Assembly: GCA_015654675.1 (NCBI GenBank)
Contig: JAATGM010000051.1
Location: 124,001-188,000, forward strand
Direction of reading: 5' to 3'
Length of the DNA: 64,000 bases
From: Planctomycetota bacterium
GTDB taxonomy: Bacteria; Planctomycetota; Phycisphaerae; UBA1845; UTPLA1
Shown here: piece after piece, positions 1 through 57,667 of the stretch
Position numbering within the stretch: the first letter of the stretch is position 1
How the letters are laid out: every line of letters begins with the position of its first letter
Notes under the pieces: generated by a model
Told to the model about the DNA's origin: nothing
The model's input: the letters and a program-made list of their open reading frames with translations, nothing else
Databases searched by the model: none
Translations under genes and position numbers: made by a program

Positions 1-1593
1 GTACGCGGAGGCGATGATTGCTTTCTGGCTCTCGCTGACGCACGTGATTGCATGTGCCCGCGACAGAACGTAGGCGACGAATGACCTGCGGGCCGCCTGG
101 CTTCCCGCAGCCAGACTGTCGCTGCGGCGGAGGTCGATGTCACAAGCATCGAGGGGGGGGCGCGTCGTCCAGCAAAACTTCCCGGCTGCGTCGAGCAGGT
201 TGAATCGCGGGCAGACGACGAAATAGTCGTGCAGCGTGACGACGGTCGCGGCACCGTGGCGCCGGGCGACATCGAGCAGCGACATGGGGTGATGCATAAA
301 GTGCATGAAATGCACGACGTCGATGCGATGGCGTTCGAGGATTCGGGCGAATTGGTGTTCGCGCTCGATGTCAAAGTAAGCGTACGGGCTGAGCGGGTTG
401 GAAAGTGGAAAAGACCAGCGATTATCTCGCGATCGAAGGACCATGCGGGTTCGATCGGCGGAGCGGCTGTCCGGATAGTAGAGATATCCGTGGAACGAAG
501 GCGAGAGACGCTCGATGGTGTCGAGCGTATGGAGCTCGGTTCCGCCGAAAGGAGGCGTTTCGCTGGCGTTATGGACGACGTATAGCACTGATCGGGGTTT
601 CGTGGATTCGATACGCAGCTGCTGACGCGGCTCGACGTCTTCGAGCCGTTTCAACAGCGCCTGCACGCGATGCCGATAGAGATGGCTGGCCCGCGCCCGA
701 TTCTGGGAGGCGCGGGCAATCCGTACGCGGCGCTCGGGGTGATCGAGAAAGTGTCGAATCAGCGAGACACAGTCGTCAGCCGTTCGGAAATAGCTCAGTT
801 CGCTATCGCGTTCGAAGTAGTCGTTGGTTTCGGGAAGCGTATCTTCAACGAGCTGGAAAGCGCCGGCGAGCGCGGTCTCGAAGAGCCGCGGCCCGGGCGT
901 CGTGCTCGGCTGATCGACGCCACTGGCGGAAAACACGCGATGCAGATAGAGAACGATTTTGGATCGGTTCTGGACGGTGGCGAGTTCGGAATTGCCCAGT
1001 CGGTAGTTCAACTCAAAGTCGGGTACGCCCAGATCGGGCTTGGGGACGAACTCATTGTGCGGCAGGATGAATTTGCAGCGCAGGCCGTGGAGCTGCCCGA
1101 CAATCTTGCGCAATAGCGCGACGCGATTCGGCCAGGCCACACCCGCGAAGAAGACGTCGTAAAGGAAGTCACGCTCAGCCTCGACGACTTCGCGATAGTG
1201 GTACGGTTCGGACGCCGCCAGCGGGAGATGATGGACTTTGGGGGATGCGTAGGAGCGCACGCTTCCGCGATCGTTCGAGAAAATGAGATCGAACAGGTCA
1301 AAGTTTCGCTGGTTGGTGGCCTGCTCGTACGGGTCTTCGGTAAGCCAGAGGACCATGCGCGGACATCGTTCGCGCAGCCGCGAAATCATTCGCCGGTGCA
1401 ATTCCTGGCCGTCCAGACACACCACTACATTGCAGCGATGTCTCGCCAGGTCCTCGAGGCAACTGTGATAGTCGGAGACGAAGACAGAGTTTTCCCCCAG
1501 CAACTCTTCGAAGGCGTCGCGCACGAAGGTTGTGAGGTATCCGTTTAGATTACTTAGCTTGGTATTCAGTAACAGGACACGCCACGCGGTCAT
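1..1593 (-). CDS. Two-domain glycosyltransferase (CgeB-like plus GT4-like), partial at window edge
   Basis: The minus strand is open for 531 codons from an ATG at 1593 and runs off the window without a stop, so the C-terminus is missing. The start has GAGGG six bases upstream. Residues 1 to about 330 resemble the CgeB/DUF3880-type glycosyltransferase fold, ending in the typical segment TPGPRLFETALAGAFQLVED. From about residue 355 a second domain begins with VVYVVHNASETPPFGGTELH, followed by a VVHFMHFMHHP and VVTLHDYFVVCP stretch typical of GT4-family N-terminal halves. It probably transfers sugars onto a surface polysaccharide or glycoprotein in the cytoplasm. It shares strand with the FkbM gene upstream, across a 234-base gap in which I see nothing. 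Acceptor and donor cannot be told from sequence. The reading frame and GT assignment are firm; the exact subfamily is not. Confidence 0.8.
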   Translation of the reverse strand, partial: MTAWRVLLLNTKLSNLNGYLTTFVRDAFEELLGENSVFVSDYHSCLEDLARHRCNVVVCLDGQELHRRMISRLRERCPRMVLWLTEDPYEQATNQRNFDLFDLIFSNDRGSVRSYASPKVHHLPLAASEPYHYREVVEAERDFLYDVFFAGVAWPNRVALLRKIVGQLHGLRCKFILPHNEFVPKPDLGVPDFELNYRLGNSELATVQNRSKIVLYLHRVFSASGVDQPSTTPGPRLFETALAGAFQLVEDTLPETNDYFERDSELSYFRTADDCVSLIRHFLDHPERRVRIARASQNRARASHLYRHRVQALLKRLEDVEPRQQLRIESTKPRSVLYVVHNASETPPFGGTELHTLDTIERLSPSFHGYLYYPDSRSADRTRMVLRSRDNRWSFPLSNPLSPYAYFDIEREHQFARILERHRIDVVHFMHFMHHPMSLLDVARRHGAATVVTLHDYFVVCPRFNLLDAAGKFCWTTRPPLDACDIDLRRSDSLAAGSQAARRSFVAYVLSRAHAITCVSESQKAIIASAY

Positions 1594-1827
1594 CTTCGAC
1601 CCTCGGTCACACCGGCAGCCGGTCCACCGGCGGCACTGGCGTCGGTCGTGCGGGTTTTGATGGGCAACCGCCTGCGTCGATCCGTCCTGGATCGGGCTTG
1701 TGGCGGCGACAGTCGCGGCGAGGCGGCGCTTATCCGCCCGCGTCAGATTATCCCGGATTGCGAGCGATGTTCAAGGGCGCGCGAGCGATGGGGCAATTTC
1801 GCGGAGGTTTCCCGGAAACGGGGTGCG

Positions 1828-2802
1828 TCAGGCGGGCTGTGCGGCCTTGCGCGCGGCGCTGCCGGCGCGCATTTCCTCGATGACGCCGGCCTGGTGCTCC
1901 ATGATTTGCTGGGCAGCGGCACGATCCTCAGTCAGATGGGCGAATGCCTCGCGTTGGATGTTAATCGCCGAAGCAAACTCGTCGTTTGAACGTTTCATCC
2001 AAGCCGCATAGCGACCCACGATCTCTCGTACCTGCGGCGCAAGACACTCCGCACGGATGGCATAGATCATGCTTCCGACGGGCGCGACGGACTGCTCGAC
2101 GATGAACCCCTGTCCCGCCAGAAAGACGCACATCGCCTCGGGATTCGAACCAACGTCGGTATGGATGGTGTGATATTCGAGCAGGATCAGCTTGGTTCGC
2201 TGAAGCGCAGCCGGATCGCATTGGTAAAGGATTTCATACTCGGCGCCTTCGCAATCGAGCTTGAGGACGAAGATTCCGCCGATGGATCGCTTGCTGAGAT
2301 ATTCGTTCAAGCGGATGGTCGGCACGGTCAATCGAGTTGCCCCGTCGCCCGCCAGCGGAAAGAAGGAGTTCATTCCCGAGTTGGCGGCGCTGGCGAAAAT
2401 CGTGCGATCTCCTCCGCCGGAAGCGACCGCGACGTTTGACGCCGAGACGCGCTCGGTCAGCCCGTTCAAGCGGAGGTTTTCACTCAGGAGGGCGTAGTTC
2501 GCGGGAACTGGCTCGAACGAATGAACCTTGAGCGTTGGATAGCGCGTGGCCGCGTGGATCGCGAACGATCCGATGTGTCCGCCGATGTCGATGATCGCGT
2601 CGCCGGGATCGGGCGTAACGAGCGAGAGAAAGGGGTGGCCGAGGTAATCATCGCGGACGCACACTTCGTGAATGATTCCGTCGATGGTGCGCTCGTCGCA
2701 GAGTTCCCGACCGGGTGTGAGCAGGGACACGCCATTACTGAGGTGGAAGAGCCGCTTGTCACCGCGGCGATCGACTTGCTCGACCCGAAGAGGGGAATTC
2801 AT
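1828..2802 (-). CDS. FkbM-family SAM-dependent methyltransferase
   Basis: The product is 324 aa. A class I SAM-binding core is visible: IIDIGGHIGSF (residues 70-80, motif I), then HSFEPVPANYALLSENLRLNG (acidic end of strand 2, quoted in part) and FVLKLDCEGAEYEIL near residue 180, the usual FkbM signature. The family O-methylates sugars or polyketides; here the glycosyltransferase and exporter neighbours suggest a methyl group on a surface glycan (inference). I chose the ATG at 2802 because GGAG lies six bases upstream; an in-frame TTG at 2856 would add 18 residues that look unlike the family. The last 60 residues are Ala/Glu-rich and probably helical. Confidence 0.85.
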   Translation of the reverse strand: MNSPLRVEQVDRRGDKRLFHLSNGVSLLTPGRELCDERTIDGIIHEVCVRDDYLGHPFLSLVTPDPGDAIIDIGGHIGSFAIHAATRYPTLKVHSFEPVPANYALLSENLRLNGLTERVSASNVAVASGGGDRTIFASAANSGMNSFFPLAGDGATRLTVPTIRLNEYLSKRSIGGIFVLKLDCEGAEYEILYQCDPAALQRTKLILLEYHTIHTDVGSNPEAMCVFLAGQGFIVEQSVAPVGSMIYAIRAECLAPQVREIVGRYAAWMKRSNDEFASAINIQREAFAHLTEDRAAAQQIMEHQAGVIEEMRAGSAARKAAQPA

Positions 2803-44739: not shown

Positions 44740-45522
44740 CTAGATGAGATAGAGACAGGGGAACAGGAAAATCCAGACGAGATCGACAAAGTGCCAGTAG
44801 AGGCCCGTGTTCTCGATGCGGTTGATATAGAACTGGCGGTCGCGATGCCAGAGCTTGGCGCCCGGGCCGAGCAGATAGCCGATAACGATGATCCCGCCGA
44901 TGACGTGCAGACCGTGGAGCCCGGTCATCGTGAAATAGACGGCGAAGAAGTTGCTGTGCCACGGGCCGTAGTTCGACAGCCGCTTGATCTGGCTGGTTTC
45001 AATCTTGATCGGCTCGTGGTGGCCGGCTTCGGCTTTGTGACCTTTGGGCGGGTCGGGGAGGAACTTGATGAAGTCGTCGGTTTTCTCTTCGATGTGACCG
45101 GTGATGGTCGTGACTTCGTGGCCGGCCACCATGGTCGGGGTGTTGAACCAGACCTGATAGTGGTGGAACTTGTCCTTGTATTCGAAGAACTTGACGACGA
45201 GGAAGACGCAGGCCAGCGACAGGGTGACGGCGAGATACTTCCGACCCTTGCTGAAATTGCCCATCATGAGCTGGGCCCAGGCCATGACCATCGTCACGCT
45301 GGAGGTGATGAGCACGGCCGTGTTCAGGGTCGCGAGCGGCACGCTGAGAATGTCGTGTCCGCGCGGCCATGTTTCGGCGTTGGTGCGGAGAAGGATGTAG
45401 CTTGAGAAGAGCGCGCCGAAGAGCATGACTTCGGACGCGAGGAAGAGCCAGATGGCGAGCTTGCCATTGGCGATGCCCGTCACCGGGTGGGGTTTGACCT
45501 GACAGGGGATGGCGACGTCCAT
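44740..45522 (-). CDS. ctaE: Cytochrome c oxidase subunit III
   Basis: The product is 260 aa. The subunit III pattern is present: [20 protein letters not shown] near residue 21 with the conserved W-x-F-x-x-S-E, [19 protein letters not shown], and [20 protein letters not shown] near 190. A soluble insert of about 75 residues (about 105-180, containing [20 protein letters not shown]) is longer than usual. It sits in the inner membrane with subunits I and II. Six bases separate it from ctaD. Confidence 0.93.
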
Positions 45523-45528
45523 TTGCGC

Positions 45529-47316
45529 TTAGACCTCCAGCACAACGTGTTGCGGGAGGAAGTCGTCCTTCCGGCCCGGCGGACTGTAAACATAGGGATC
45601 GCGGTGAGCTTTCGGCTCGGTCAGGAAGTTGCCGTGCGGGGGCGGCGAAGGGGCGGCCCACTCAAGCGTCGTCGAATCCCACGGATTCTCGGTGACCTTC
45701 TTGCCGGCAAACATGCTGACGAAGAAGTTGAAGATGAACGGCAGCTGGGCGATGGCCATGATCCACGCCGACCATGAAATCATCTTGTGGAGCTTGAGCG
45801 ACGCCAAACCGGCCTGATAGATGTTCGGGTCGTATGTGCGGCGCGACAGGCCCATCATGCCCTGAATCAGCATGGGGAAGAAGATGCAGTTCATGCAGAT
45901 GAAGGTCGGCCAGAAGTGAAGCTTGCCGAGCGTTTCGTTCATCATGCGGCCGGTCGCTTTGGGGTACCAGTAATAGATACCCGCGAACATCCCGAAGATG
46001 GTTCCGGGGGCGACCACGTAGTGGAAGTGCCCGATTACGTAGTAGGTGTCGTGCAGGTGGATATCCGAACTGGTGAGGCCCAGCGGCAGACCGGTCAGCC
46101 CGCCGATGGCGAACATCGGCAGGAAGGCGATCGCGAAGAGCATGGGCGTGTTAAAGCGGATAGACCCGCCCCAGAGACTGATGACCAGGGCCGTCAGAAT
46201 GATGACGGATGGAATTGAAATGATCATCGTGGTCGTCTGGAAGAAGGTGCTGATCTTGGTGGACATGCCCGTCATGAACATGTGGTGGGCCCAGACGATA
46301 AACGACATGAAGCCCAGGAATGCGGCCGCATAGACCATCGAGCGATAGCCCCACAGCGGCTTGCGGGTGTTGTTTGCAATGACCTCGGCCACGATACCCA
46401 TGGCCGGAAGGATGAGCACGTACACCTCGGGGTGGGCGAGGAACCAGAAAAGGTGCTGCCAGAGCAGCGGGCTTCCGCCGCCGACCCACTCGGCCGCCTT
46501 GCCGCTGACCCACAGGCCGGACGGCATGAAGAAGCTGGTGCCGGCCAGGCGATCCATGAGCTGCATGACGCCGGCCGCTTCGAGCGGCGGGAAGGCGAGC
46601 AGCAGCAGGAAGGCCGTCACGAACTGCGCCCAGACGAAGAACGGCAGGCGGAACATGGTGAGGCCGGGGGCGCGCATGTGGATGATGGTGACGATGAAGT
46701 TGATCGAGCCGAGCAGCGACGACGTGATCAGGAAGATCATGCCGACGAGCCAGGCCGTCTGGCCGGGGTTGATGACCGAGAGCGGGGCGTAAGAGGTCCA
46801 TCCGGACTGCGCCGCTCCGCCGGGCATGAAGAAGCTGGCGAGCATGATGAGTCCGCCTGGCAGGAAGACCCAGTAGCTCATCATGTTGAGCTTGGGGAAG
46901 GCCATGTCGGGCGCGCCGATCTGGAGCGGCATGACGAAGTTGCCGAAGCCGCCGACGGCCAGCGGCACGATGCCGAGGAAGACCATGATGGTGCCGTGCA
47001 TGGCACCGAGCGCGTTATAGCCCTCGGGGAGCAGCACACCCTCGGTCGCGAGGTTCATGTAGCCGGCATAAAGCTGTTTGCTGAGCATGCTGCCGACAAA
47101 CGGGATGACATGGCCCGGGTTGGCGAGCTGCCAACGCATGATCATCATCAGAGTGAAACCGAAGAACAGAAATACGAGCGCGGTCACCGTGTATTGCATC
47201 CCGATGACCTTGTGGTCGGTCGAGAAGATCCACTTACGGATGAAGCCGAGTTCGTGGTGGCCGTGGGCATGATCGTCATGCGCGTGGCCGTGATCGTGGG
47301 AGTGACCGGCGCTCAT
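45529..47316 (-). CDS. ctaD: Cytochrome c oxidase subunit I with His-rich N-terminus
   Basis: The product is 595 aa. It carries the A-type haem-copper oxidase motifs: FWFLAHPEVYVLILPAMGIV (CuB His cross-linked to Tyr, with the Glu of the D channel), IVWAHHMFMTGMSTKIST (two CuB His and the K-channel Lys) and LHDTYYVIGHFHYVVAPG (haem a3 and a ligands). Twelve or so helices are seen. The N-terminus is unusually rich in His (HSHDHGHAHDDHAHGHHELG, residues 5-24), facing the cytoplasm and suited to metal binding. The start ATG 47316 overlaps the ctaC stop (ATGA); GGAGG lies about ten bases upstream. It reduces O2 and pumps protons. Confidence 0.96.
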   Translation of the reverse strand: MSAGHSHDHGHAHDDHAHGHHELGFIRKWIFSTDHKVIGMQYTVTALVFLFFGFTLMMIMRWQLANPGHVIPFVGSMLSKQLYAGYMNLATEGVLLPEGYNALGAMHGTIMVFLGIVPLAVGGFGNFVMPLQIGAPDMAFPKLNMMSYWVFLPGGLIMLASFFMPGGAAQSGWTSYAPLSVINPGQTAWLVGMIFLITSSLLGSINFIVTIIHMRAPGLTMFRLPFFVWAQFVTAFLLLLAFPPLEAAGVMQLMDRLAGTSFFMPSGLWVSGKAAEWVGGGSPLLWQHLFWFLAHPEVYVLILPAMGIVAEVIANNTRKPLWGYRSMVYAAAFLGFMSFIVWAHHMFMTGMSTKISTFFQTTTMIISIPSVIILTALVISLWGGSIRFNTPMLFAIAFLPMFAIGGLTGLPLGLTSSDIHLHDTYYVIGHFHYVVAPGTIFGMFAGIYYWYPKATGRMMNETLGKLHFWPTFICMNCIFFPMLIQGMMGLSRRTYDPNIYQAGLASLKLHKMISWSAWIMAIAQLPFIFNFFVSMFAGKKVTENPWDSTTLEWAAPSPPPHGNFLTEPKAHRDPYVYSPPGRKDDFLPQHVVLEV

Positions 47317-48104
47317 TCCTTGAATTCCTCCTCGGCGTTGACGGGTTGGGTGCTGACCTTCTTCGAGTCGAGCCATTTCTGGAAGGACTCGGGCGTGTCA
47401 ATGTGAACCGCGCCGCGCATCTTGAAGTGGTTGTTTCCGCATAGCTGGGCACAGGTGATGTCGAACTCGCCCAGCGTGGCGTTTTCGGCCGGCTCGAACC
47501 AGATAGGGAAGACCGTGCCGGGGATGACGTCCTGCTTCACGCGCATCACGGGAATCCAGAAGCTGTGGATCACGTCTTTCGACGAGAGCCGCAGCATGAC
47601 GGGCTTGCCGCGAATCACGTGCAGGTTGTTGACGTCGACAATGTCGTCGAGGGCGTGGGGGTCGTTCGGATCGAGGCCGACCGGATTGGCGGCCTCGTCA
47701 ATATATTTCTGATCGGTCTTGCCGAAGATTCCGTCCGGGCCCGGGTAATGGAAGTTCCAGGCGAATTGCTGGGCAACGACGCGGACGTGCTGGGCCTTGT
47801 CCTTGTCGGGCGGGGCGTGTTTGTAGGCCGCCCAGACCGGCATTGAGAATCCGAGCAGGATCACGGCCTCGAAGATCGCGACGCCGATCTCGGCGTACTT
47901 CGAGCCCTTGGCGTGAATCAGCTCGGGATTGGCCCGGTGTCCGGGCTTGGCCCGGAACCTCACGAGGCAATAGACGAAGAAGATGCCCCAGCCGACGAAG
48001 AGGATCAGCATGAATACGTGGATGATGTTGATCAGATCATCAATCTTGTATCCATACTTGGACAGGTCGACGGGGAGCCAGTACCCGGGGTTTTGAACGC
48101 CCAT
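47313..48104 (-). CDS. ctaC: Cytochrome c oxidase subunit II (CuA)
   Basis: The product is 263 aa. Two N-terminal helices (near 24-48 and 75-95) anchor a cupredoxin domain with the CuA site CAQLCGNNHFKM (residues about 218-229) and its first His in KDVIHSFWIPVM. The protein ends about 34 residues after the CuA Met, so it has no fused cytochrome c domain, in contrast to caa3-type subunit II. It receives electrons from a carrier on the outer face; the octahaem protein and the cupredoxin encoded just upstream are the candidates (inference). No lipobox is evident. Confidence 0.95.
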   Translation of the reverse strand: MGVQNPGYWLPVDLSKYGYKIDDLINIIHVFMLILFVGWGIFFVYCLVRFRAKPGHRANPELIHAKGSKYAEIGVAIFEAVILLGFSMPVWAAYKHAPPDKDKAQHVRVVAQQFAWNFHYPGPDGIFGKTDQKYIDEAANPVGLDPNDPHALDDIVDVNNLHVIRGKPVMLRLSSKDVIHSFWIPVMRVKQDVIPGTVFPIWFEPAENATLGEFDITCAQLCGNNHFKMRGAVHIDTPESFQKWLDSKKVSTQPVNAEEEFKE

Positions 48105-48158
48105 TCGGAATCCTTGAATTGAATAGACCGATCGGCCGAGCGATAACGCGCGGCGACG

Positions 48159-48914
48159 TTACTTCTTGGCCAGCTTGACGTCCTTCTCGACCGTCTCGCC
48201 GTCCTTGACTTCGATGTCGATCTCCTGCGGAGCCCACTCCTCGTGCCAGACGGCGAGCTTGTACTTGCCGGCCGGGAGGTTCTTGATGGTGAACTCGCCG
48301 CCCTTTTTCGTGGTGTCGAAGAACGGGTGGGGCAGGACGCCGATGTACGCGCTCATCCAGGGGTGGACGTCGCACTTGATATGGACCATGACTTCGGGGT
48401 TGTTGAAAGTCTCGGCCGAGACCAGGTCCTTGGTCATGCCCTTCTTCGGCTGGCTGAAGTTGAACGATTTGTTCTTGGTCGGGAGCGAGTGGATGTTGTG
48501 GTTGGTGTCGTCGGTGTTGACGATTTTCATGGTTTGGCCGGCGACCATGCCCGCGACATGCGGCTTGTACATGCAGCCGGATTGATCGATTTCGAGGGCC
48601 TCAGCGGGCGGCGTGTACTTGGAGCCGAGGTCGAGTTTGCCGTCGGCGCTCTTGATGTAAACGAAGGCATAAGGCAGCGTGCCGTCGGCGAAAATCAGCT
48701 TGCCCTGCGGCGAAACGGGCTTGGGGTTAGCCGCGAGGCAGAACTTGTCGGCGCCCATTGCGATGGGCGCGCCGGGGGTCGGCTTGCCATCGGCAGAGAT
48801 CTTGCCCTTGACCGTCGCCGTGCCCATTTTTCCGTCGGCGAGGGCCGAACCGGCGAGCAGGGCGAGCGTCAGTGACGCGACCAGCGATGTGGTGTTCCAA
48901 CAACGATTATTCAT
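48159..48914 (-). CDS. Secreted cupredoxin-like protein with type 1 copper motif
   Basis: The product is 251 aa from ATG 48914, with AAGGAG six bases upstream. A signal peptide (residues 1-26, ending SALADG) is followed by a beta-rich domain with the ligand set of a type 1 copper site: TDDTNHNIHSLP (first His) and HIKCDVHPWMSAYIG (Cys-x2-His-x2-Met). The C-terminal part (GGEFTIKNLPAGKYKLAVWH) is the carboxypeptidase-regulatory-like fold common in this group. It would be periplasmic and could carry electrons or copper. It sits between the octahaem cytochrome and CtaC, with 93- and 54-base gaps, the widest in the operon. Confidence 0.8.
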   Translation of the reverse strand: MNNRCWNTTSLVASLTLALLAGSALADGKMGTATVKGKISADGKPTPGAPIAMGADKFCLAANPKPVSPQGKLIFADGTLPYAFVYIKSADGKLDLGSKYTPPAEALEIDQSGCMYKPHVAGMVAGQTMKIVNTDDTNHNIHSLPTKNKSFNFSQPKKGMTKDLVSAETFNNPEVMVHIKCDVHPWMSAYIGVLPHPFFDTTKKGGEFTIKNLPAGKYKLAVWHEEWAPQEIDIEVKDGETVEKDVKLAKK

Positions 48915-49007
48915 CTGAGACTCCTTAGCTTGAAACATGCGGCCCGAGCCGCGCCCGAATCCGCGACAATGTCCCTTATCCGTGTAGACAATGCAACCCT
49001 GCACGCG

Positions 49008-52000
49008 CTAGGGCTGGAAATCGTCTCCGCCTGATTTTGGTTCGTCCTTTTTGCCTTCCGTGGCGGGCTTTTTATCGTCCTTTGGCTCGGCCGCCGGCTT
49101 GGCTCCGCCGCCCTGGTCCTCGAATTCGTCCTCCGCAGAGCGCGGCTTTTCGGCCGGCTTGGCGCCCTCCGGAGCGGCGGGTGCAGGCGGCTGGACGACT
49201 GTTGCGTTGCGCGAACCGAGGTCGAAGAGGAAATCGATCAGCAGTTGAATCTGGTCGCCAGAAGTTTGGCCGAATTCGGCTTGCGCCTTGTCGCGATCGG
49301 CCTCGGGGAAGTCTTTGAAGGCCGAGTTTCCGTCGGCAAAGAGCTGGGGCATGTTGGTGCCGGGCTGAATCCACTGCGGATTGAGCAGCCACTGCTTCAC
49401 CCAGTCGGGCCTGAGGCGTCTGTGGGCGAGAGCGAAATTCGGGGCCTTGATGTCGGCGGTCGTGCCCTCGGCAAACGGATCGCCGGCGACATGGCAGGCG
49501 AGACACTTCAACTCAAGCAAGAGCTTTTTGCCGTGGTCATAGCGGGCGTCGTCGGCCTGGACGTGCGGCATGCCGGCGAACGGATATTCGACGTTGTAGA
49601 GCCGCTGCAGGAACTCGGAGCCGGTGACGACCTTCTGGAAGCCGGTTGCGATTGCCTTCGAGGCCTCTTCGCCGTTAGAGGCGCTCTTCGTGTCGAGGTC
49701 GAAGGGCATGACCAGCTTCTGCCGCAGGGCGTAGCGGGCCAGCCAATCGGCCACGTAGTTGACCGAGAGATCGACGAACCAGCTCTTACGCCAGGTCGGC
49801 GTTGAGTTCACCTTTGATTCCCAGCCGTGAACCGTGGCGAGCCGCTCGGCGAGCGACTGCGACTGCGACTGGGCCGCGCCGACGAAGTATTCGACAAGGG
49901 TGGTGGTCTGCTCGTGGGTGAGGTGGAAACTGGGCATGCGAATCTTGAGCCACGGGCGGAGCATTTCGACGTTGTTGAGGAAGCCATAGAGCCAGGAGAA
50001 CTGAATCTTGGCGCCTTCGCCGTAGAGGTTGGGCGGCGCGTTGGTCACGTCGAAGAGGATCTGGCCGGAGGCGGGGTCGGGTTTGAAATAATACTGCTGC
50101 ACATTGGCCGAATTGTTTTCGATGGAGTGGCAACCAATGCAGTTCAGCTCGGCGACGAGGTGCCGGCCGCGGGCCAGCTTGCCGGTGGGCGTGGCTTCGT
50201 AGGCGATCTGCACCTGCGGGCGGACGAGCGGGGCCTGGCGCGAGAGCAGATAGGTGACGAGCGAGTGGACTTCGTCCTCGTTGAGGAAGAAGTTGGGCAT
50301 CTTGAGTTTTTCGTAGGGCTTCTTGAGTTTGTCGCGGTCCCAGATGCGCGGGTTGGCGAGCTTGTAGTGGGCGAACGACGCGTGCGTGTGGGAGACGTCG
50401 ACGTGCTCGTTCTTCCCGCCTGATGCGCGGATGAGCTGCTCGAACTCGGCCGAACCCTCGGGGTAGAGATGGTCCCAGAGCTTTTTGTCCTTCTCGCGAT
50501 CTTCGGCGAAGCCCTCGTCGAAGAAGGCGAAATCGAGCTGGGCGAGCAGCTTGCGGCCCCAGGTGGACAGCTCGGTGCCGGGACGCGACGCGCCTTCGAA
50601 GCCGGGGATGGAATGGCAGGCGTAACAGCCATAGTGCAGGATCATCTTGCTGCCGAGGAAGAGCTTCTGCTTTCCGGCCAGATCCTGCTTGGCGATGATT
50701 TCGCCAACGGCCTTCACGCCCGCGTCGCCCGTGCCGTATGACGGCGCGACGGTTTTCACAACGCGATCGGTGAGCAGGCCGAACTCGTCGGCCGGGTCCA
50801 TTTTCTTGTCGGAGATGATCGCCGCGACCACGCTGTCGGTGTTCTGTCCGGCCAGGAGAATTCGGACGAGGCGAACGACCTCGGCTTCATGGGCGGGGTC
50901 GTTCGGGAAGGGCTCGGGTTTGAAGCTGTCGTGCCGCAACGAGAGCAGGTACTCGGCGACGTCGAGCATGTCCTGGTCGTTTTTCTTGAGCTTGCCGGCC
51001 GGGTCGCGCTCCTGCCAGTAGTAGTTGTCGCGGAACATGCGCGGCATCTTGGTGTAGGACGAATAGTGGCGGGGCTCGCGGAGCCAGTCGTAGAGCCAGC
51101 GCCGCGCGGCTGTCGCCTGTTCGGCGTTGCCGGCGTCGGGATTGAGCTTGGTGCCGAGGCCGCCCAACTCGGGCGCGAAACGCGTGAGCGCGCCGGGGAC
51201 GTATTGCTTCTTCGGGTCGGGATCGCGGCCAGCGGCTTCGGCCGCGGCCTTTTCGGCGTCGGCCACGCGCTGCAGGCGATCGCGGCGCTCGGTGGTGAGG
51301 TGCACGACTGCGTATTCGACGCGCTGGTTGTGCGTCATGTCTTTGTAACGCTTGGCCGCGTCATCGGCGGAGGCGCCGTCGTGGACGAGGTCGGCGATGA
51401 TCCAGCATTCGCCGAACGAGCGGCCGGCTGAGTCGTTGGGGTTTTTCGCTTCGAGATTGGCGTGGCAGGCGAGGCAGCCGATCGAGGTGAAGAGCTCTTC
51501 GCCGTGCTTCGGGTCGCCCTGGATGCCGGTTGGCAGTTCGACGGGGGTGTAGGGCTTCGAGAAGGTCAGCAGGTAGTGGCTGATGGCTTCGATCTCGGTG
51601 TTGGTGCGGAGGATCGGGTCGGGGTCTTCGAAGCTCTTGCTCCAGGGAAGGTTGTTTTCCTGGCGGAAGGGGTGCGGCATACGCGTCGACGGGCGATAGT
51701 CCTTTGGGAAATTGACCCACTTCTGAATGAAGCCTTCGGTGAGTTTGGAGGCGACGTGCGTGAGGTCGGGGCCGACCTGGCGCGAGTCGTTGAGGCCTTC
51801 GGAGGCGTGGCAGTTGATGCAGCCGAGCGTGATGTAGAGGTCTTCGCCGCGCACGATCGCGTCGGCGTCGGGCAGGCGCTCGCCTTCGCGCTGCTCGAGG
51901 TCGGTCGTCTGCGTGTGGCACTTTGCGCAGGAGGCCGATGTGTTCTGTTTGAGGAGCATCGGCCGCTCCCAGTATTCCTGAGCGGTGTGGAAGTTGATTT

Positions 52001-53291
52001 CGGGGACGCCGCCGTGCTTGACGTAGTATTTCTTGCCCCATTCGTGGGCCTGCTCTTCGCTGTGCGGCGTGTGGGCGGCGAGAACGAAGTCGGTCTCCTG
52101 GCCGTTGCCCTCGTGACAGACGGTGCAGCCCATTTTGTTGATGGGGTGCGGCGAGTCGGGTGAGACGTAGAGGTCGAGATTGGGGTGGGCGAGCAGCGGA
52201 TGGCCGTATTCGATCGGGGCGCGGCCGGTGGACTTGAGATAGGTGTTTAGCGTGTTGGTGAGGCCGGTGAGGAACTTGTCCTTCTGGTCGTCGTTCATGT
52301 CGGCGAAGGCCGGCGTGGGGACGGCGGCATCGCCGGGTTTTGCGTCGGCGGCCGGCGTGGCGTTGGCTTCGAGCGGCTTCTCGCCGCGGGCGACGCGCTC
52401 TTCGTTGACGACGCGCAGGGCGGTCTGAAGTTTCTCGGCGAACATTTCGCGGGTGAGGTTTGGATTATCGATGCCGACGTGGCAGGTGGTGCAGCGGTCG
52501 GTGATGTAGGACTGGGCGAAGTTGAAATCGGCGCGGATGTCGGGCAGGACGACCTGCTTGATTTCCTCGCGGCCGGGCGTGCCGCGCGGGGCGAGGAAGT
52601 CGGCCAGGGGCGCGTTGAAGATGTCTCGTACGGGGACGAGTCCGAAGAGTTCACCACCCTTTGCGCCGTAGAGTTTGTCGCGGCGAGCGGCTTCGTCCAT
52701 TCCCTTTTCGAAGGCGGCGAGATTCTTGCGGGCGTCGTCGCGTTTGGCGTAGAAGGCGCGCATCTTGCGAGAGAGGGCGCGCTGTTCGTCTTCTAGAGTG
52801 TCTTTGGTGGTGCGAAACTTTGTAAGCTGGGCGCGTTGCTCGTCGAGGAGTTTGCGGGCGGCGACGGTTTTTTCGTTTTCGGCGCCGTGCAGCGTCTTGT
52901 ATTCGTTGTAATTGAACTCAGTCACCTGAATCTGGGCATTCAGATCGCCGAAGCTCATGTTGGCGGCGGCCAGCTTGCCGCCGAGCAGGTTGCGCGCTTT
53001 CAGCAGCTCCTTTTCTTCGTCGGTTTTCTTAGAAAGGTCGGCGTCGGCGGCACTGACTGCGTCCTGCAATTGCTTGTGGCGCTCTTTAGACTCGGGCGTT
53101 TTGAAGCCGAGGAAATCGAAGTGCGAGAGGGCGGCCATGATGTCGAAGTAGCGGAGCTGGGTGTGACGCCAGGGGCGATCGTAATCGGCCCACAGCATCC
53201 AGGCCGTGGAGAGGGCGGCCACCAGCGCCGTGATGGCGAAGATGGCGTTGAGCCGTTTGGTGTTCCAGAGGGTGTCAGTTGTTACGGGCAT
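49008..53291 (-). CDS. Giant membrane-anchored octahaem cytochrome c
   Basis: The product is 1427 aa. One helix (residues about 14-34) anchors it. A long coiled coil follows (about 65-205, with KERHKQLQDAVSAADADLSK). Eight CxxCH sites are present: CTTCH (267-271), CTVCH (389-393), CAKCH (455-459), CINCH (491-495), CLACH (606-610), CYACH, CIGCH and CLACH in the C-terminal half. The last 60 residues are acidic/Lys/Pro-rich. I know of no standard family of this length; parts look like repeated mono- or dihaem cytochrome c domains. It follows the cytochrome b genes and precedes the copper proteins and CtaC, and there is no other cytochrome c gene in the operon, so it probably takes the role of cytochrome c1 and c together (inference). 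Confidence 0.9.
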   Translation of the reverse strand: MPVTTDTLWNTKRLNAIFAITALVAALSTAWMLWADYDRPWRHTQLRYFDIMAALSHFDFLGFKTPESKERHKQLQDAVSAADADLSKKTDEEKELLKARNLLGGKLAAANMSFGDLNAQIQVTEFNYNEYKTLHGAENEKTVAARKLLDEQRAQLTKFRTTKDTLEDEQRALSRKMRAFYAKRDDARKNLAAFEKGMDEAARRDKLYGAKGGELFGLVPVRDIFNAPLADFLAPRGTPGREEIKQVVLPDIRADFNFAQSYITDRCTTCHVGIDNPNLTREMFAEKLQTALRVVNEERVARGEKPLEANATPAADAKPGDAAVPTPAFADMNDDQKDKFLTGLTNTLNTYLKSTGRAPIEYGHPLLAHPNLDLYVSPDSPHPINKMGCTVCHEGNGQETDFVLAAHTPHSEEQAHEWGKKYYVKHGGVPEINFHTAQEYWERPMLLKQNTSASCAKCHTQTTDLEQREGERLPDADAIVRGEDLYITLGCINCHASEGLNDSRQVGPDLTHVASKLTEGFIQKWVNFPKDYRPSTRMPHPFRQENNLPWSKSFEDPDPILRTNTEIEAISHYLLTFSKPYTPVELPTGIQGDPKHGEELFTSIGCLACHANLEAKNPNDSAGRSFGECWIIADLVHDGASADDAAKRYKDMTHNQRVEYAVVHLTTERRDRLQRVADAEKAAAEAAGRDPDPKKQYVPGALTRFAPELGGLGTKLNPDAGNAEQATAARRWLYDWLREPRHYSSYTKMPRMFRDNYYWQERDPAGKLKKNDQDMLDVAEYLLSLRHDSFKPEPFPNDPAHEAEVVRLVRILLAGQNTDSVVAAIISDKKMDPADEFGLLTDRVVKTVAPSYGTGDAGVKAVGEIIAKQDLAGKQKLFLGSKMILHYGCYACHSIPGFEGASRPGTELSTWGRKLLAQLDFAFFDEGFAEDREKDKKLWDHLYPEGSAEFEQLIRASGGKNEHVDVSHTHASFAHYKLANPRIWDRDKLKKPYEKLKMPNFFLNEDEVHSLVTYLLSRQAPLVRPQVQIAYEATPTGKLARGRHLVAELNCIGCHSIENNSANVQQYYFKPDPASGQILFDVTNAPPNLYGEGAKIQFSWLYGFLNNVEMLRPWLKIRMPSFHLTHEQTTTLVEYFVGAAQSQSQSLAERLATVHGWESKVNSTPTWRKSWFVDLSVNYVADWLARYALRQKLVMPFDLDTKSASNGEEASKAIATGFQKVVTGSEFLQRLYNVEYPFAGMPHVQADDARYDHGKKLLLELKCLACHVAGDPFAEGTTADIKAPNFALAHRRLRPDWVKQWLLNPQWIQPGTNMPQLFADGNSAFKDFPEADRDKAQAEFGQTSGDQIQLLIDFLFDLGSRNATVVQPPAPAAPEGAKPAEKPRSAEDEFEDQGGGAKPAAEPKDDKKPATEGKKDEPKSGGDDFQP

Positions 53292-53320
53292 AGCGTCTTA
53301 AATCCCAGGCGCGTCGCCTC

Positions 53321-54481
53321 TCAGACGTTAAAGAACCATTCCGTGATCGCCAGGAAGTACTTCAGGTTGAACAGCCAGCGGAGGACCATCTTGATCGGGA
53401 CGAGGAGCATCCAGCTCATGAGGATCCAGAAAACTACGTAGCGGATCATGCCGAGTTGACTGAAGATTTTTTTGAAGGCCGTCTTGGCGAGCAGGACGGG
53501 CATGACGAAGAAGTAGAAGCCGAGCAGCACGAGGCCCGGTGCTTCGCGAATGATGTAGGCCGGGACGAGACCGCCGAGGGCCGCCTGATTGGGGAGGCCG
53601 GGCTTCCACGGCAGGTTCCATTTGCTCGGCATGACGATCCAGAACACGTCGGACACGTTGATGTTGAGCAGGGCGACGGGGCGGTGCGAATCCCAGTATT
53701 CGTAGGGGCCGAAGAAGTTCCAGTTGGGACCGCGGAGGAAGGTGCCGACGATGATCAGCACGATCCACATGATGACCCAGCCGAACATATAGACCGAGAT
53801 GACGAAGGGGCGCTCCTTGAGCGTGTAGTAGCCGTTGCCGCGCGGGTTCTTGTCGATGAACGGCAGCGCCACCAGTCCGAAGATGATCAACCCGGGCAGC
53901 AGCACGCCGGCGATCCATGGATCGAAATAGACGAGCAGCTCCTGCAGGCCGAGGAAGTACCACGGGGCCTTTGACGGATTGGGGATGACCGACGGATTGG
54001 CCGGTGGCTCGAGCGGGGCCTTGAGGATGATGGCCCAGACGATGAGGAACACTGTGCAGAGGACCAGGCAGATTAGTTCGGTGTAAACGAGATCGGGCCA
54101 GACGAGGACTTTGTCGTCGGAGCCGGCTTCGAGCAGCGGCTCGCCGCGCTCGGTGCGTTCGTCGTTGATGGCGGCCTGGCGAAAGGCCAGCCAGGTCACG
54201 AAGCCCGTGAAAAAGATGAGCATCGTGATGGGGACGTTGTCGGGCTTGGTGATGATCTTGAAGAAGTTGTGATCGGTCATGCTGCCGAAGTAGAAGATTG
54301 AAAACAGGATGGTGACGGTGAGGATAACCTTCGGCTTGGTCCACTTGCGGTAAGCGACCAGGGCGAGAATGAACCCGACGGTGGCCAGGGAGACGAACTT
54401 CTCGGGAGCGCAGAGCCAGTTGACCAGGCCCCGGAATCGCTCGCCGAGCGACGCTCCTGAGTTAGCGAGTATCTCGAACAT
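53321..54481 (-). CDS. Cytochrome b C-terminal (subunit IV-like) protein, enlarged
   Basis: The product is 386 aa from ATG 54481, which has GAGG five bases upstream; ATG 54502 is an alternative seven codons earlier. The Qo-site region reads KAPWYFLGLQELLVYFDPWI (residues about 172-191), the APWY variant of the PEWY motif, and the subunit IV plan continues with IAGVLLPGLIIFGLVALPFI. It is much longer than b6f subunit IV (about 160 aa): three extra helices precede the Qo motif (near 28-44, 51-68 and 86-103) and several follow. With the b6-like protein upstream it forms the quinol-oxidising cytochrome b of the bc complex. Confidence 0.88.
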   Translation of the reverse strand: MFEILANSGASLGERFRGLVNWLCAPEKFVSLATVGFILALVAYRKWTKPKVILTVTILFSIFYFGSMTDHNFFKIITKPDNVPITMLIFFTGFVTWLAFRQAAINDERTERGEPLLEAGSDDKVLVWPDLVYTELICLVLCTVFLIVWAIILKAPLEPPANPSVIPNPSKAPWYFLGLQELLVYFDPWIAGVLLPGLIIFGLVALPFIDKNPRGNGYYTLKERPFVISVYMFGWVIMWIVLIIVGTFLRGPNWNFFGPYEYWDSHRPVALLNINVSDVFWIVMPSKWNLPWKPGLPNQAALGGLVPAYIIREAPGLVLLGFYFFVMPVLLAKTAFKKIFSQLGMIRYVVFWILMSWMLLVPIKMVLRWLFNLKYFLAITEWFFNV

Positions 54482-54514
54482 CGATGCCTCGTCCTGCCCC
54501 ATCGCCGACTTCGA

Positions 54515-55300
54515 TTACAGAGGACCCGAAATCCCGCCGTCCTTACGGATACGCCAGAAGTGCACGGCGATCAGCACCGTCACCACGACCGGGATGAACA
54601 CGCAGTGCAACACGTAGAACCGCAGCAGGGCGTTCGGCCCGACGAATGTTCCGGCGAGCAAACCAAAGCGAGCGTCGGAGCCGGCCGTGACCAGCGGTAC
54701 ACCTGCGACTTGTAACAGACTCGCTCCGGGACCTTCGTGGCCGAGGAAGGGCGTAGCGCGGGCCATGTTCGATCCGACGGTGATAGCCCAGATCGCGAGC
54801 TGGTCCCACGGGAGCAGATAGCCGGTGAATGAGAGCAGCAGCGTCAGCACGAGCAGGATGACGCCGACACCCCAGTTAAACTCGCGCGGAGGTTTGTAGC
54901 TGCCGGTGAGGAAGACACGCAGCATGTGAAGCCAGATGGCAATCACCATCGCGTGCGCGCCCCAGCGGTGGATTTCACGGAGGAGGCCGAGGGTGACGTG
55001 TGCCCGCAGGCCCTGAATATCGACATAGGCGTATTCGACGGTGGGGCGGTAGTAGAACATCAGGAGCACGCCCGTGACCGTCTCGGCGAGGAAGAGGAAG
55101 AACGTCAGGCCGCCCATGCACCAGGTGAAACTGAGGCGGATGCCGCTCTTGCGGACCGCGACGGGGTGCAGGTGCAGGAAGACGTTGGACAGGACAGCCA
55201 TGGCGCGGGTTCGTCGATCGCGCGGCACGCCGTGGCGAAAGACCGAGCCCCAGACCTGGCTGTTGCGGAAGTAATCGCCGACTCGACCGATGACGCTCAT
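54515..55300 (-). CDS. Cytochrome b6-like N-terminal cytochrome b
   Basis: The product is 261 aa. Four helices carry the two pairs of haem-b His: [20 protein letters not shown] (14 residues apart) and [20 protein letters not shown] (15 apart). The 15-residue spacing and the C-terminal [11 protein letters not shown] match b6 rather than mitochondrial-type cytochrome b. Cys 61 in [11 protein letters not shown] aligns with Cys 35 of b6 (YCLGG), which holds haem c-i. [11 protein letters not shown] and [11 protein letters not shown] are further b6-like segments. It oxidises quinol with the subunit IV-like partner encoded 33 bases downstream. Confidence 0.92.
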
Positions 55301-55345
55301 GTTTGTCTCACGCCTGCCCTGATTGGTTCCACTCTCGCCTGCGGG

Positions 55346-56434
55346 TTAGACCGGGATGGACGCGTCCGGATCGTTCCAGACGGCCGTGTCGTTGGGGCCC
55401 ATCGCCAAAAACTTCTTGGAGCGATCGACGACGACCTGACCCGCGTCGATGTTGATCTTGAATCGCTCGAGCGGTCGCGGGGCGGGGCCTTCGAAGTTGG
55501 TGCCATTGGGTTTGAAGCCCGAGCCGTGGCACGGGCACTTGAACTTGCGATCGTTGCCGAGCCAGTTCGGGATGCAGCCGAGATGGGTGCAGACGATGGA
55601 GACGGCTGCCAGTCGCTCTTCTTCGCGGATGATCCAGAACTTACCGGAGTTTTTGAATGTTTCGTCGACTTCGCCCGGTTGCAGGTTGGCGAAGCGCGAC
55701 AAGGGGCCGCAGCGGAACTTCGGTTCCGGTTCCTCGAGGACGTTGGGCATCATGAAGCGCTGGAAGCCCATCAGACTTGGCACGCCGACGCCGAGGCCCA
55801 TGATGCCCCAGGCCACGCCGGCGGAGAGGATTTCGCGCCGCGACGGCTCGCCGTCCTTCTTTTCGGGTTTGCTTTGCTCGATGACCTTCGCGTAGCGCGC
55901 GTCGGGCGGAAGTTTGTCGGGCGACTGCTTCTGGATTTCCTTGAGGGCTGAAGGGGCGTCTGCGCCTTTGATGATGCCGGCCGCGCCGCCACGGATCGTG
56001 GCCGCCGCGATAAGAGCCGCGATGGCCGGGTCAGTCGATTTCGGTTTTTCGGTGGGCTTCTTGGGGGCTGGTTTTTCGGGCGAGGCCTTGGCGCCGGGGG
56101 CCGGGCCTTCGGCGTGGGCCGCGGCGGGTGCGTGCGGTTCGGCCTTGTCAGCCGCGGGGGCGGCAGCGGCCGTCGCGAACTTGGGCGCCTGGTCGGCGGG
56201 GACTTCGATCAGGTCGAACTTGATGACGTCGACCGGGCACTCTTCGGCGGCCTGGATGATGTCCGGCGTGAGCGGCTTGGTGAACTCGGCGTCGAGCGCG
56301 GCGGGGCGGATGAGGCATGTGCCATCGTCGTGCTTAACTTCGAAGACCGACGGCGCGGTTGTCTCGCACGCGTCGCACACGATGCAACCGGGCGCGATCC
56401 AGACTTTGGTCACCAGTTTGACGGCTGTCGACAT
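55346..56434 (-). CDS. Rieske iron-sulphur protein with N-terminal 4Fe-4S ferredoxin-like domain
   Basis: The product is 362 aa. Residues 13-75 are ferredoxin-like: Cys 17, 20 and 23 in GCIVCDACETTAPSVFEV and Cys 66 in AAEECPVDVIKFD, the ligand set of one 4Fe-4S (or 3Fe-4S) cluster. A Pro/Ala/Lys-rich linker (80-135) and a helical part follow, then a twin-arginine-like signal and membrane helix (SRREILSAGVAWGIMGLGVG, 198-217) and the Rieske domain with CTHLGC (282-287) and CPCHGSGF (300-307), carrying the 2Fe-2S ligands. The topology would put the ferredoxin domain in the cytoplasm and the Rieske cluster outside. Two extra helical stretches near 135-155 are Ala/Ile-rich. Confidence 0.92.
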   Translation of the reverse strand: MSTAVKLVTKVWIAPGCIVCDACETTAPSVFEVKHDDGTCLIRPAALDAEFTKPLTPDIIQAAEECPVDVIKFDLIEVPADQAPKFATAAAAPAADKAEPHAPAAAHAEGPAPGAKASPEKPAPKKPTEKPKSTDPAIAALIAAATIRGGAAGIIKGADAPSALKEIQKQSPDKLPPDARYAKVIEQSKPEKKDGEPSRREILSAGVAWGIMGLGVGVPSLMGFQRFMMPNVLEEPEPKFRCGPLSRFANLQPGEVDETFKNSGKFWIIREEERLAAVSIVCTHLGCIPNWLGNDRKFKCPCHGSGFKPNGTNFEGPAPRPLERFKINIDAGQVVVDRSKKFLAMGPNDTAVWNDPDASIPV

Positions 56435-56451
56435 GATCGTCGCTCCTGCGT

Positions 56452-57507
56452 CTAACTCTGCGGCTTGCCGGCCGTCATAGCGGTCGGCGCGCCTTCCGTC
56501 AGTGCCCGTCGCGCGGCTTCGCGCACGGACGGCGACGGATCGTTTTTCAATCGCTCAATGCCGGCTCGCAGGTCGGCATCGTCGAGGCGGCGGGCGGCAT
56601 CGGCCGCGACACCGAGATAGCCGTCGATTTCGTTCGACGTGAAGGGTCGATCGATCGTCTCGGCGGCGTCTTGATATTGCACGCGGCTCTTTTCCCAGAA
56701 TCCGCGATCGAGCATGTTGAGCAGCACGGCTTTGCCGGACTTGCTACCCAGCTTGGCCAGCGCGACGGCCGCATTCCACTGCACTTCGCGATCGCCCGCC
56801 AGCTTTTGCCGAAGGGCTTTGATGGCGGCCGTGTCGTCCGGCTTTGCGAGGACGCCGACGGCGGCCGTCGCGACGATTTGCACGGCGGGCGATTCGTCGT
56901 CGAGTCGCTGAACCACGGCTGGCACACGCTCGTGGACGGCCGGCTGATCGCGCATTTCCATCAGTCCCGAGAGGGCCGCCTGCCGGGCCTGAGGATCGGT
57001 GTTATCGAGGTATTTGGCCACCGTGTCGACGGCCCTGGGCGTGTTAAGTCGGGCCAGCGCCATAATGAGAAATTGTTGCTTGGTCTGGAAGGCCCGCACG
57101 ACCTCGTCGTCCGCGCCGGCCGGCTTCTTGAGGGTTCCGAGCACGCGATCAATTCGCTCGGCGGTCTGGTCGATTTGCTCGGGCGTCAGCTCCTGATTTT
57201 TGCGGGTCAGGCGCGTGGCCAGCTCCTGAGCGGCCTGCCAGACTTCGCGGTCGGCCGGGAAGAGCATCATGCCGGCGGTGTGTTTTCCCGCGTCGGATTC
57301 GATGGTGCGGAGCAGATCGTCGATCGACGGCCGCTGGCCGACGGTTGTGCCGCCAAACAGGACGACCACGATGGCGAGGCAGATCATGACGGTGACGATG
57401 ATGGCCGGGACGACGAAGAGACGGCCGATCAGTGTGGCGGAAGGCGGTTCGGGCGCAGCGGCGGCGTGGCTGGCGGCGGATGCGGCATGCTCACCCGAGG
57501 GGTGCAT
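56452..57507 (-). CDS. Membrane-anchored HEAT-repeat protein of the respiratory operon
   Basis: The product is 351 aa from ATG 57507 (AAGG about ten bases upstream); an in-frame ATG at 57624 would add 39 residues. One helix (LFVVPAIIVTVMICLAIVVV) near residues 30-50 is followed by a helical-repeat domain: ARLNTPRAVDTVAKYLDNTD, PQARQAALSGLMEMRDQPAV, SPAVQIVATAAVGVLAKPDD, NAAVALAKLGSKSGKAVLLN and PSPSVREAARRALTEG. HEAT repeats bind proteins, so it may be an assembly or scaffold subunit for the supercomplex (inference). It is the first gene of the 18-gene operon, 17 bases before the Rieske gene, and a promoter candidate lies upstream. Confidence 0.8.
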   Translation of the reverse strand: MHPSGEHAASAASHAAAAPEPPSATLIGRLFVVPAIIVTVMICLAIVVVLFGGTTVGQRPSIDDLLRTIESDAGKHTAGMMLFPADREVWQAAQELATRLTRKNQELTPEQIDQTAERIDRVLGTLKKPAGADDEVVRAFQTKQQFLIMALARLNTPRAVDTVAKYLDNTDPQARQAALSGLMEMRDQPAVHERVPAVVQRLDDESPAVQIVATAAVGVLAKPDDTAAIKALRQKLAGDREVQWNAAVALAKLGSKSGKAVLLNMLDRGFWEKSRVQYQDAAETIDRPFTSNEIDGYLGVAADAARRLDDADLRAGIERLKNDPSPSVREAARRALTEGAPTAMTAGKPQS

Positions 57508-57667
57508 GGGCTGCGAACCTTCGTCTTCGGCGGCGCGGGTGCGGCCGTCGAGCGGACGCGCGACTTTGTGAAAACATTCACGAAGTCTGTGACAAAATTC
57601 GGCGGGCACAAGCACCGCCGTCATCAGTGGGGTCGCCGGGCGACCTCTTCCTCAGCTATCTGGTTGT

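Follow-up and report, generated by a model that had tools for sequence, protein, structure and literature searches.

The ferredoxin-Rieske gene and its operon

The DNA analysed here (the window) is a stretch of 64,000 nucleotides from a contig of a Planctomycetota bacterium. On its minus strand, from position 56434 to 55346, an ORF with an ATG start codes for a protein of 362 aa in which a Rieske domain is preceded by a ferredoxin domain. From the N-terminus, the protein comprises the ferredoxin domain, which is of the [4Fe-4S] type (residues 1–85; 56180..56434); a variable linker rich in Ala, Pro and Lys (approximately residues 85–134; 56033..56182), delimited by alignment, fast-evolving and mostly below pLDDT 50 in the AF2 model; a patch ahead of the anchor that is conserved in the alignment of homologues (residues 135–195; 55850..56032; DPAIxALLxAATxRGG ... 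LPPDAR) and is hydrophobic in the window's copy, a property that most homologues lack; a twin-arginine motif (S198-R199-R200) with a membrane anchor (approximately residues 199–230; 55745..55840); and the Rieske [2Fe-2S] domain (residues 238–345; 55400..55721), all of them on the minus strand.

The Rieske domain was recognised by Pfam over residues 250–325 (E 1.2e-9), and its closest relative in the PDB is Kustd1480 (9rk3, E 6.6e-34), with which it shares 50% identity and which is also the best structural match of the full-length model (Foldseek 1.1e-8); Kuste4569 from Kuenenia is likewise among the nearest. With its CTHLGC...CPCHGSG motif, a Tat-type anchor and an adjoining cytochrome b gene, the protein satisfies all the criteria set for a Rieske subunit, and its architecture is the one described in an earlier reading made from the sequence alone (the sequence-only reading), in which an anchor with a twin arginine is followed by a normal Rieske domain. 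The full-length AF2 model (mean pLDDT 65, residues 90–134 disordered) was usable for its domains only, and a model restricted to residues 1–85 was used in its place for the ferredoxin. Another kind of N-terminal extension occurs before the RR anchor of a planctomycete Rieske protein without ferredoxin (locus L045 of genome G190, 1093-2166, plus strand), where it consists of two copies of a repeat of ~45 residues, FPxQVxxAIxxGxYxxxDLIITSKISGQKMSWLxYxxE[IL]K.

The gene order on the minus strand is HEAT protein, ferredoxin-Rieske protein, cytochrome b6-like protein, subunit-IV-like protein, octahaem cytochrome c, cupredoxin-like protein and the Cox II, Cox I and Cox III proteins, and the part from the HEAT gene through the Rieske, cytochrome b6 and subunit IV genes to a multihaem cytochrome c recurs in nearly all of the ~30 homologous loci that are long enough. 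The first gene (56452..57624, minus strand) codes for a HEAT-repeat protein (Pfam) with an N-terminal membrane anchor, and holds the same position in the ferredoxin-bearing loci and in some planctomycete loci without ferredoxin.

The cytochrome b6-type subunit (54515..55300, minus strand) has four helices and was assigned by Pfam, by alignment to the b6 of solved b6f complexes and by conservation; its haem ligands are His111, 125, 232 and 247. In b6, Cys35 is the attachment site of haem cN; Cys61 of the window protein aligns to it in the PDB alignment, and this cysteine was found in 63 of the 67 cytochrome b sequences. The histidines of a FLHLHP motif (His43/45; 55166-55174, minus strand) are kept in 66/67; an extra n-side haem b has been proposed for Kuenenia, and these residues may be equivalent to its ligand, a correspondence that is untested. 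The subunit-IV-like protein (53321..54502, minus strand; Pfam, PDB alignment and motif table) has extra helices and a PSKAPWYF Qo motif. Its Glu142 occupies the position of Phe40 of the b6f subunit IV, a residue that lies over haem cN. Glutamate ligation of haem cN has been discussed for the Kuenenia models (PMC12954380), and the Cys/Glu signature of the haem-cN site is as intact here as in relatives without ferredoxin.

The next gene (49008..53291, minus strand) codes for a membrane-anchored cytochrome c of 1427 aa with eight CXXCH motifs, assigned by Pfam, motif count and conserved operon position, which is the presumed electron acceptor of the Rieske protein. It is followed by the cupredoxin-like gene and those for Cox subunits II, I and III-like (44740..49004, minus strand; from ORF order and sequence), a neighbourhood that is kept in several loci. 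With a split four-helix cytochrome b and subunit IV, and with the haem-cN cysteine, the complex meets the criteria for the b6f type except that for cytochrome f, whose place in the operon is taken by the octahaem cytochrome. No gene for an n-side NAD(P)/FAD oxidoreductase was found among the operon ORFs (44.7–57.6 kb), while the positive control, locus L110, has one. The quinol-oxidising complex, the octahaem cytochrome and the haem-copper oxidase are coded in one unbroken run of genes (44740-57624, minus strand), which suggests that they form a supercomplex.

The N-terminal ferredoxin domain

Several lines of evidence show that the ferredoxin domain is real. Residues 17–72 match Fer4_13 (E 1.6e-7; 32.4 bits, the curated Pfam cut-off being 24.5), and Fer4_15 matches too. 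A PDB search with the first 81 residues gave the [4Fe-4S] ferredoxin of Bacillus thermoproteolyticus as nearest (E 0.0018). The AF2 model of residues 1–85, built with 29 sequences, has a pLDDT of 79 and the order of elements expected for a ferredoxin; Foldseek ranked 1IQZ first, VIA-align superposed the model on the P. furiosus ferredoxin 1SIZ (Z 9.1, 1.9 Å over 65 residues), and the top structural matches are the single-cluster ferredoxins of P. furiosus, R. palustris and Bacillus.

The four Cys of the CIVCDAC...CP motif were kept in 44 of 44 homologues with an intact N-terminus; 45 distinct fused proteins were aligned, and the only one left out of this count (L091) has its N-terminus cut by a contig end. 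Cys40, a fifth cysteine, does not vary among the fused homologues either, nor do the Rieske ligands, except in one row that a contig end truncates. Pairwise comparisons of the window gene with four relatives, plus one pair of close relatives, gave dN/dS values of ~0.04–0.2 for the ferredoxin segment, similar to those of the Rieske domain, and the segment is under strong purifying selection. A chance CxxCxxC motif, or a wrong start codon, can be discarded, as the N-terminus aligns over 44 homologues and is under purifying selection, and so can a species-specific accident, as homologues in further genomes and contigs carry the fusion.

The sequence-only reading had numbered the four Cys exactly (17, 20, 23 and 66). 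The domain search that it asked for gave the Fer4_13 and Fer4_15 matches, and neither of the two results that it had named as refuting a ferredoxin, a structure prediction without the fold or homologues lacking the four Cys, was obtained. That the bound cluster is a [4Fe-4S] cluster of low potential is an inference, without spectroscopic or redox data.

Membrane anchor and topology

A twin arginine just ahead of the anchor helix is a general feature of Rieske proteins. Here R199 and R200 are invariant in 45/45 fused homologues, the segment ~199–232 is the most hydrophobic stretch in 95% of homologues, and TatC is encoded in this genome. From the invariant Tat motif and the single anchor helix we infer that the Rieske cluster would face the p-side and that the ferredoxin would be cytoplasmic, in agreement with the earlier proposal that the two clusters lie on opposite sides of the membrane; the topology has not been measured. 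In the window's own copy residues 137–155 are the most hydrophobic stretch, which is a caveat; a second helix there that would flip the topology was ruled out, as 199–232 is the clear anchor in 95% of homologues.

Distribution of the fused and the separate ferredoxin

Homologues were collected from whole genomes and from GTDB contigs. The fusion is present in four families of the same order (f1, f8, f2 and f4) and in a further one of the same class (f12). The contig-scan records that carry names are from Phycisphaerae, Phycisphaerales or Planctomycetota bacteria, bar one distant archaeal match to the ferredoxin part. The archaeal match (L093, 262-2187, plus strand) comes from a Thermoplasmata MAG, in which the ferredoxin domain is joined to a flavodoxin/diflavin-like protein. 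In the genomes sampled outside the class the Rieske protein is unfused, and no ferredoxin was found in the operons inspected.

The neighbouring family f5 has both arrangements. In three of its genomes (G033, G045 and G030) a Rieske gene without ferredoxin is followed by cytochrome b6, subunit IV and, directly behind, a gene for a Fer4_13 ferredoxin; in a fourth (G051) the Rieske gene is followed by one for a fused cytochrome b-subunit IV, and this by the ferredoxin gene; and two more, G048 and G057 (the latter at a contig end), have the ferredoxin-Rieske fusion with a short linker. No multihaem cytochrome was found in the examined stretch of the f5 operons. The fused protein of G051 (L106, 7289-9241, plus strand) has 650 aa and lacks the haem-cN cysteine, and its contig has no multihaem cytochrome. 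Because the separate ferredoxin gene adjoins subunit IV in three genera of f5, the ferredoxin, judged from gene order, is part of the complex and not a chance fusion, and it accompanies the quinol-oxidising core in both its fused and its separate form.

In the Rieske tree, a branch with 100/100 support splits the ferredoxin-bearing proteins from those without, the exceptions being L033 (a long branch on the ferredoxin-less side) and two outgroup rows. In trees of the ferredoxin domain, the fused and the separate ferredoxins fall in different groups with modest support. Two recruitments of the ferredoxin are possible, and the tree does not decide between one and two. A different bc complex, without ferredoxin and without the haem-cN cysteine, was seen in two genomes of genus g19 of family f8 (L104 and L105, genomes G023 and G043); its Rieske proteins branch with the anammox-type proteins of f55, possibly as a long-branch effect.

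The separate gene bears on two explanations in which the cluster delivers no electrons to the complex. In the first, it takes no part in catalytic electron transfer and would be a sensor of redox state or of iron/oxygen, or an assembly checkpoint on the export or use of the Rieske protein. Tat substrates leave after folding and the ferredoxin precedes the Tat signal, the linker is long and disordered, and long N-terminal tails that contain no ferredoxin occur in other planctomycete Rieske proteins; however, the domain has a plain electron-transfer ferredoxin fold with the complete set of four Cys and no other domain, and a ferredoxin coded by its own gene, as in G033, G045, G030 and G051, cannot serve as a tethered export checkpoint. 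We consider such a role unlikely. In the second, the domain would carry electrons for another enzyme of the cytoplasm, such as a reductase or a 2-oxoacid:ferredoxin oxidoreductase, and would merely be tethered to the membrane. It is the sole Fer4_13 domain found in this genome, and so may be the main ferredoxin of its type, and the long linker would allow the reach; but the genome has at least one further small frame, of 107 aa with two Fer4 motifs, and the operon linkage to cytochrome b persists when the ferredoxin is unfused, so that we give this explanation very little credit.

A basic patch on cytochrome b

When the cytochrome b proteins that accompany a fused ferredoxin were compared with those that do not, 8 of the 18 distinguishing positions fell in residues 1–48 (hypergeometric p 0.0075), the N-terminal n-side segment before the first helix. 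No such clustering in residues 1–48 was seen in the control comparison, between two ferredoxin-bearing families. Within this segment, the PRDRRTR motif has a constant charge of +3 (counted over residues 25–33) in the fused set versus a mean of +0.65 without ferredoxin, and the f5 complexes share part of the patch. The fused ferredoxin itself is acidic, with a mean charge of -8.5. This is a lead for docking; the charge patch could also stem from shared ancestry.

Discussion

Our results describe a b6f-type complex with a built-in ferredoxin. In the literature searched we came across no account of a bc complex whose Rieske protein is fused to a ferredoxin, although the search did not cover subscription papers on Rieske/cytb diversity, reportedly the subject of ten Brink et al. 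2013 and Dibrova et al. 2013. The fusion suggests that electrons can pass between the respiratory chain and the cell interior through a part of the complex itself. We think it probable that the domain is an n-side electron port, leaving the direction of flow open. The narrower proposal is that an n-side [4Fe-4S] carrier integral to these complexes gives them direct electron exchange with the ferredoxin pool of the cytosol, so that they act as a ferredoxin:menaquinone reductase or, driven by quinol, as a ferredoxin reductase; this seems to us evenly balanced. The exchange of electrons between the ferredoxin and the bc complex had been put forward in the sequence-only reading; it is supported by the fusion, by the separate but adjacent genes and by the basic patch on cytochrome b, and it has not been shown. 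No redox, spectroscopic or interaction data stand behind the port, which remains inferred.

Regarding direction, our current hypothesis, which is tentative and to which we give somewhat less than an even chance, is that the protein is the Rieske subunit of a b6f-type menaquinol:cytochrome c oxidoreductase with a tethered cytoplasmic ferredoxin through which electrons pass from cytosolic ferredoxin to menaquinone, the direction being inferred. The flexible linker would keep the [4Fe-4S] ferredoxin in the cytoplasm while the Rieske cluster works across the membrane, and the acidic domain could dock electrostatically on the n-side of cytochrome b, at the basic PRDRRTR segment, and pass electrons at the n-side quinone site via haem cN/bN. 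In this scheme 2-oxoacid:ferredoxin oxidoreductases would reduce ferredoxin, whose electron would move on to the tethered domain, which with haem bN would reduce menaquinone at Qn, a ferredoxin:menaquinone reductase activity within the complex. This ferredoxin-dependent quinone reduction is inferred, without kinetic data.

Input is favoured because the haem-cN Cys/Glu signature is as intact as in the relatives without ferredoxin, because quinone would be reduced spontaneously by a low-potential donor near an n-side quinone site that looks intact, and because 2-oxoacid:ferredoxin oxidoreductase genes occur in this genome and in nearly all genomes of the order. Genes of this family (PF01558) were found in this genome and in 113/114 genomes of the order, and a presence so general is uninformative as a discriminating correlate. 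Haem cN was rejected as the obligatory partner of the ferredoxin, as its cysteine occurs without ferredoxin, and in G048 and G051 the ferredoxin is kept although cytochrome b lacks the cysteine; haem cN is thus not essential for input or output. A point against input is that a pumping route would conserve energy that is lost when ferredoxin reduces menaquinone; for anammox, Hauser et al. reasoned in this way against input from NAD(P)H (PMC12954380).

The flow could also be the reverse. With quinol bifurcation at Qo, the low-potential electron would travel over haems bP and bN, possibly also over an extra n-side haem, to the tethered ferredoxin, providing reduced ferredoxin for biosynthesis. 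The model is the anammox proposal that Rieske/cytb complexes make NAD(P)H, with an n-side FeS/NAD(P) oxidoreductase in that sister lineage (PMC12954380), and L110 has a gene for such a protein between cytochrome b and subunit IV. Closeness of our Rieske domain to Kustd1480, for which +335 mV was measured and whose Ser and Phe tuning residues are shared by sequence (S305 and F307; PMC12954380), would suit output rather than input. A high-potential acceptor chain (octahaem cytochrome c and oxidase) is encoded next door, and the ligand of the proposed extra haem b may be among the conserved FLHLHP histidines. On the other side, menaquinone reduction at Qn, where the cN Cys and Glu are intact as in relatives without ferredoxin, would compete, and organisms with 2-oxoacid:ferredoxin oxidoreductases already make reduced ferredoxin. 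Both the analogy with Kuenenia and the Rieske potential, which is likely to be high, speak for output, and it may be regarded as a serious rival to ferredoxin input, even if we hold it to be unlikely.

Electron input from ferredoxin on the n-side of b6f-type complexes, and the purpose of haem cN, are debated for photosynthetic cyclic electron flow. A transfer from ferredoxin or FNR through haem ci to quinone has already been proposed for b6f (PMC5683061). If such an exchange with the ferredoxin pool takes place, in either direction, the planctomycete complex would be a natural, permanently wired version of this disputed ferredoxin:quinone route of cytochrome b6f. With the ferredoxin covalently attached to a haem-cN-type complex, and coded by a separate operon gene in neighbouring genera, it offers a direct system in which to measure electron transfer from ferredoxin to haem.

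Three groups of known systems come closest to the complex. The single-cluster ferredoxins of B. thermoproteolyticus (1IQZ), P. furiosus (1SIZ/2Z8Q) and Thermotoga maritima (1VJW) have the same fold and a CxxCxxC...CP-type motif; they are soluble and free-standing, whereas the planctomycete domain is fused to a membrane Rieske protein and, unlike them, has the extra invariant Cys40. The cyanobacterial and chloroplast b6f complexes share with ours the split cytochrome b6 and subunit IV, the haem-cN cysteine, a Rieske protein with one anchor and a debated ferredoxin:plastoquinone activity on the same side. They have no ferredoxin domain and have Phe at the cN ligand position where the window complex has Glu; in the latter the octahaem cytochrome replaces cytochrome f, and the Qo motif is KAPWY instead of PEWY.

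The Kuenenia stuttgartiensis complexes (Kuste4569-4574 and Kustd1480-1485), from anammox bacteria of the same phylum, have a b6-like cytochrome b with haem cN, a subunit-IV-like protein with extra helices, Glu at the cN-ligand position, a multihaem cytochrome c and an attached n-side redox module with FeS clusters (PMC12954380). For them quinol bifurcation to NAD(P) has been proposed and Rieske potentials above +300 mV were measured, and the paper does not mention ferredoxin (PMC12954380). Their module is a FAD/NAD(P) oxidoreductase that is a protein of its own and has several clusters (PMC12954380); the operon in the window lacks an NAD(P) oxidoreductase, and the counterpart here is one single-cluster ferredoxin domain that forms the N-terminus of the Rieske protein. 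The 568-aa protein of L110, with Pyr_redox_2 and Fer4 domains, matches the oxidoreductase described for Kuenenia (PMC12954380) and is coded between cytochrome b and subunit IV in an f55 genome that we infer from gene order to be Brocadiae-like. By analogy, the tethered ferredoxin may be said to resemble the anammox NAD(P) oxidoreductases in function, as an unrelated module, and it would represent a second way in which planctomycete Rieske/cytochrome b complexes have been given a redox module on the cytoplasmic side. Set side by side, the oxidoreductase of L110 and Kuenenia and the ferredoxin described here imply that planctomycete b6f-type complexes acquired n-side redox modules of two unrelated kinds.
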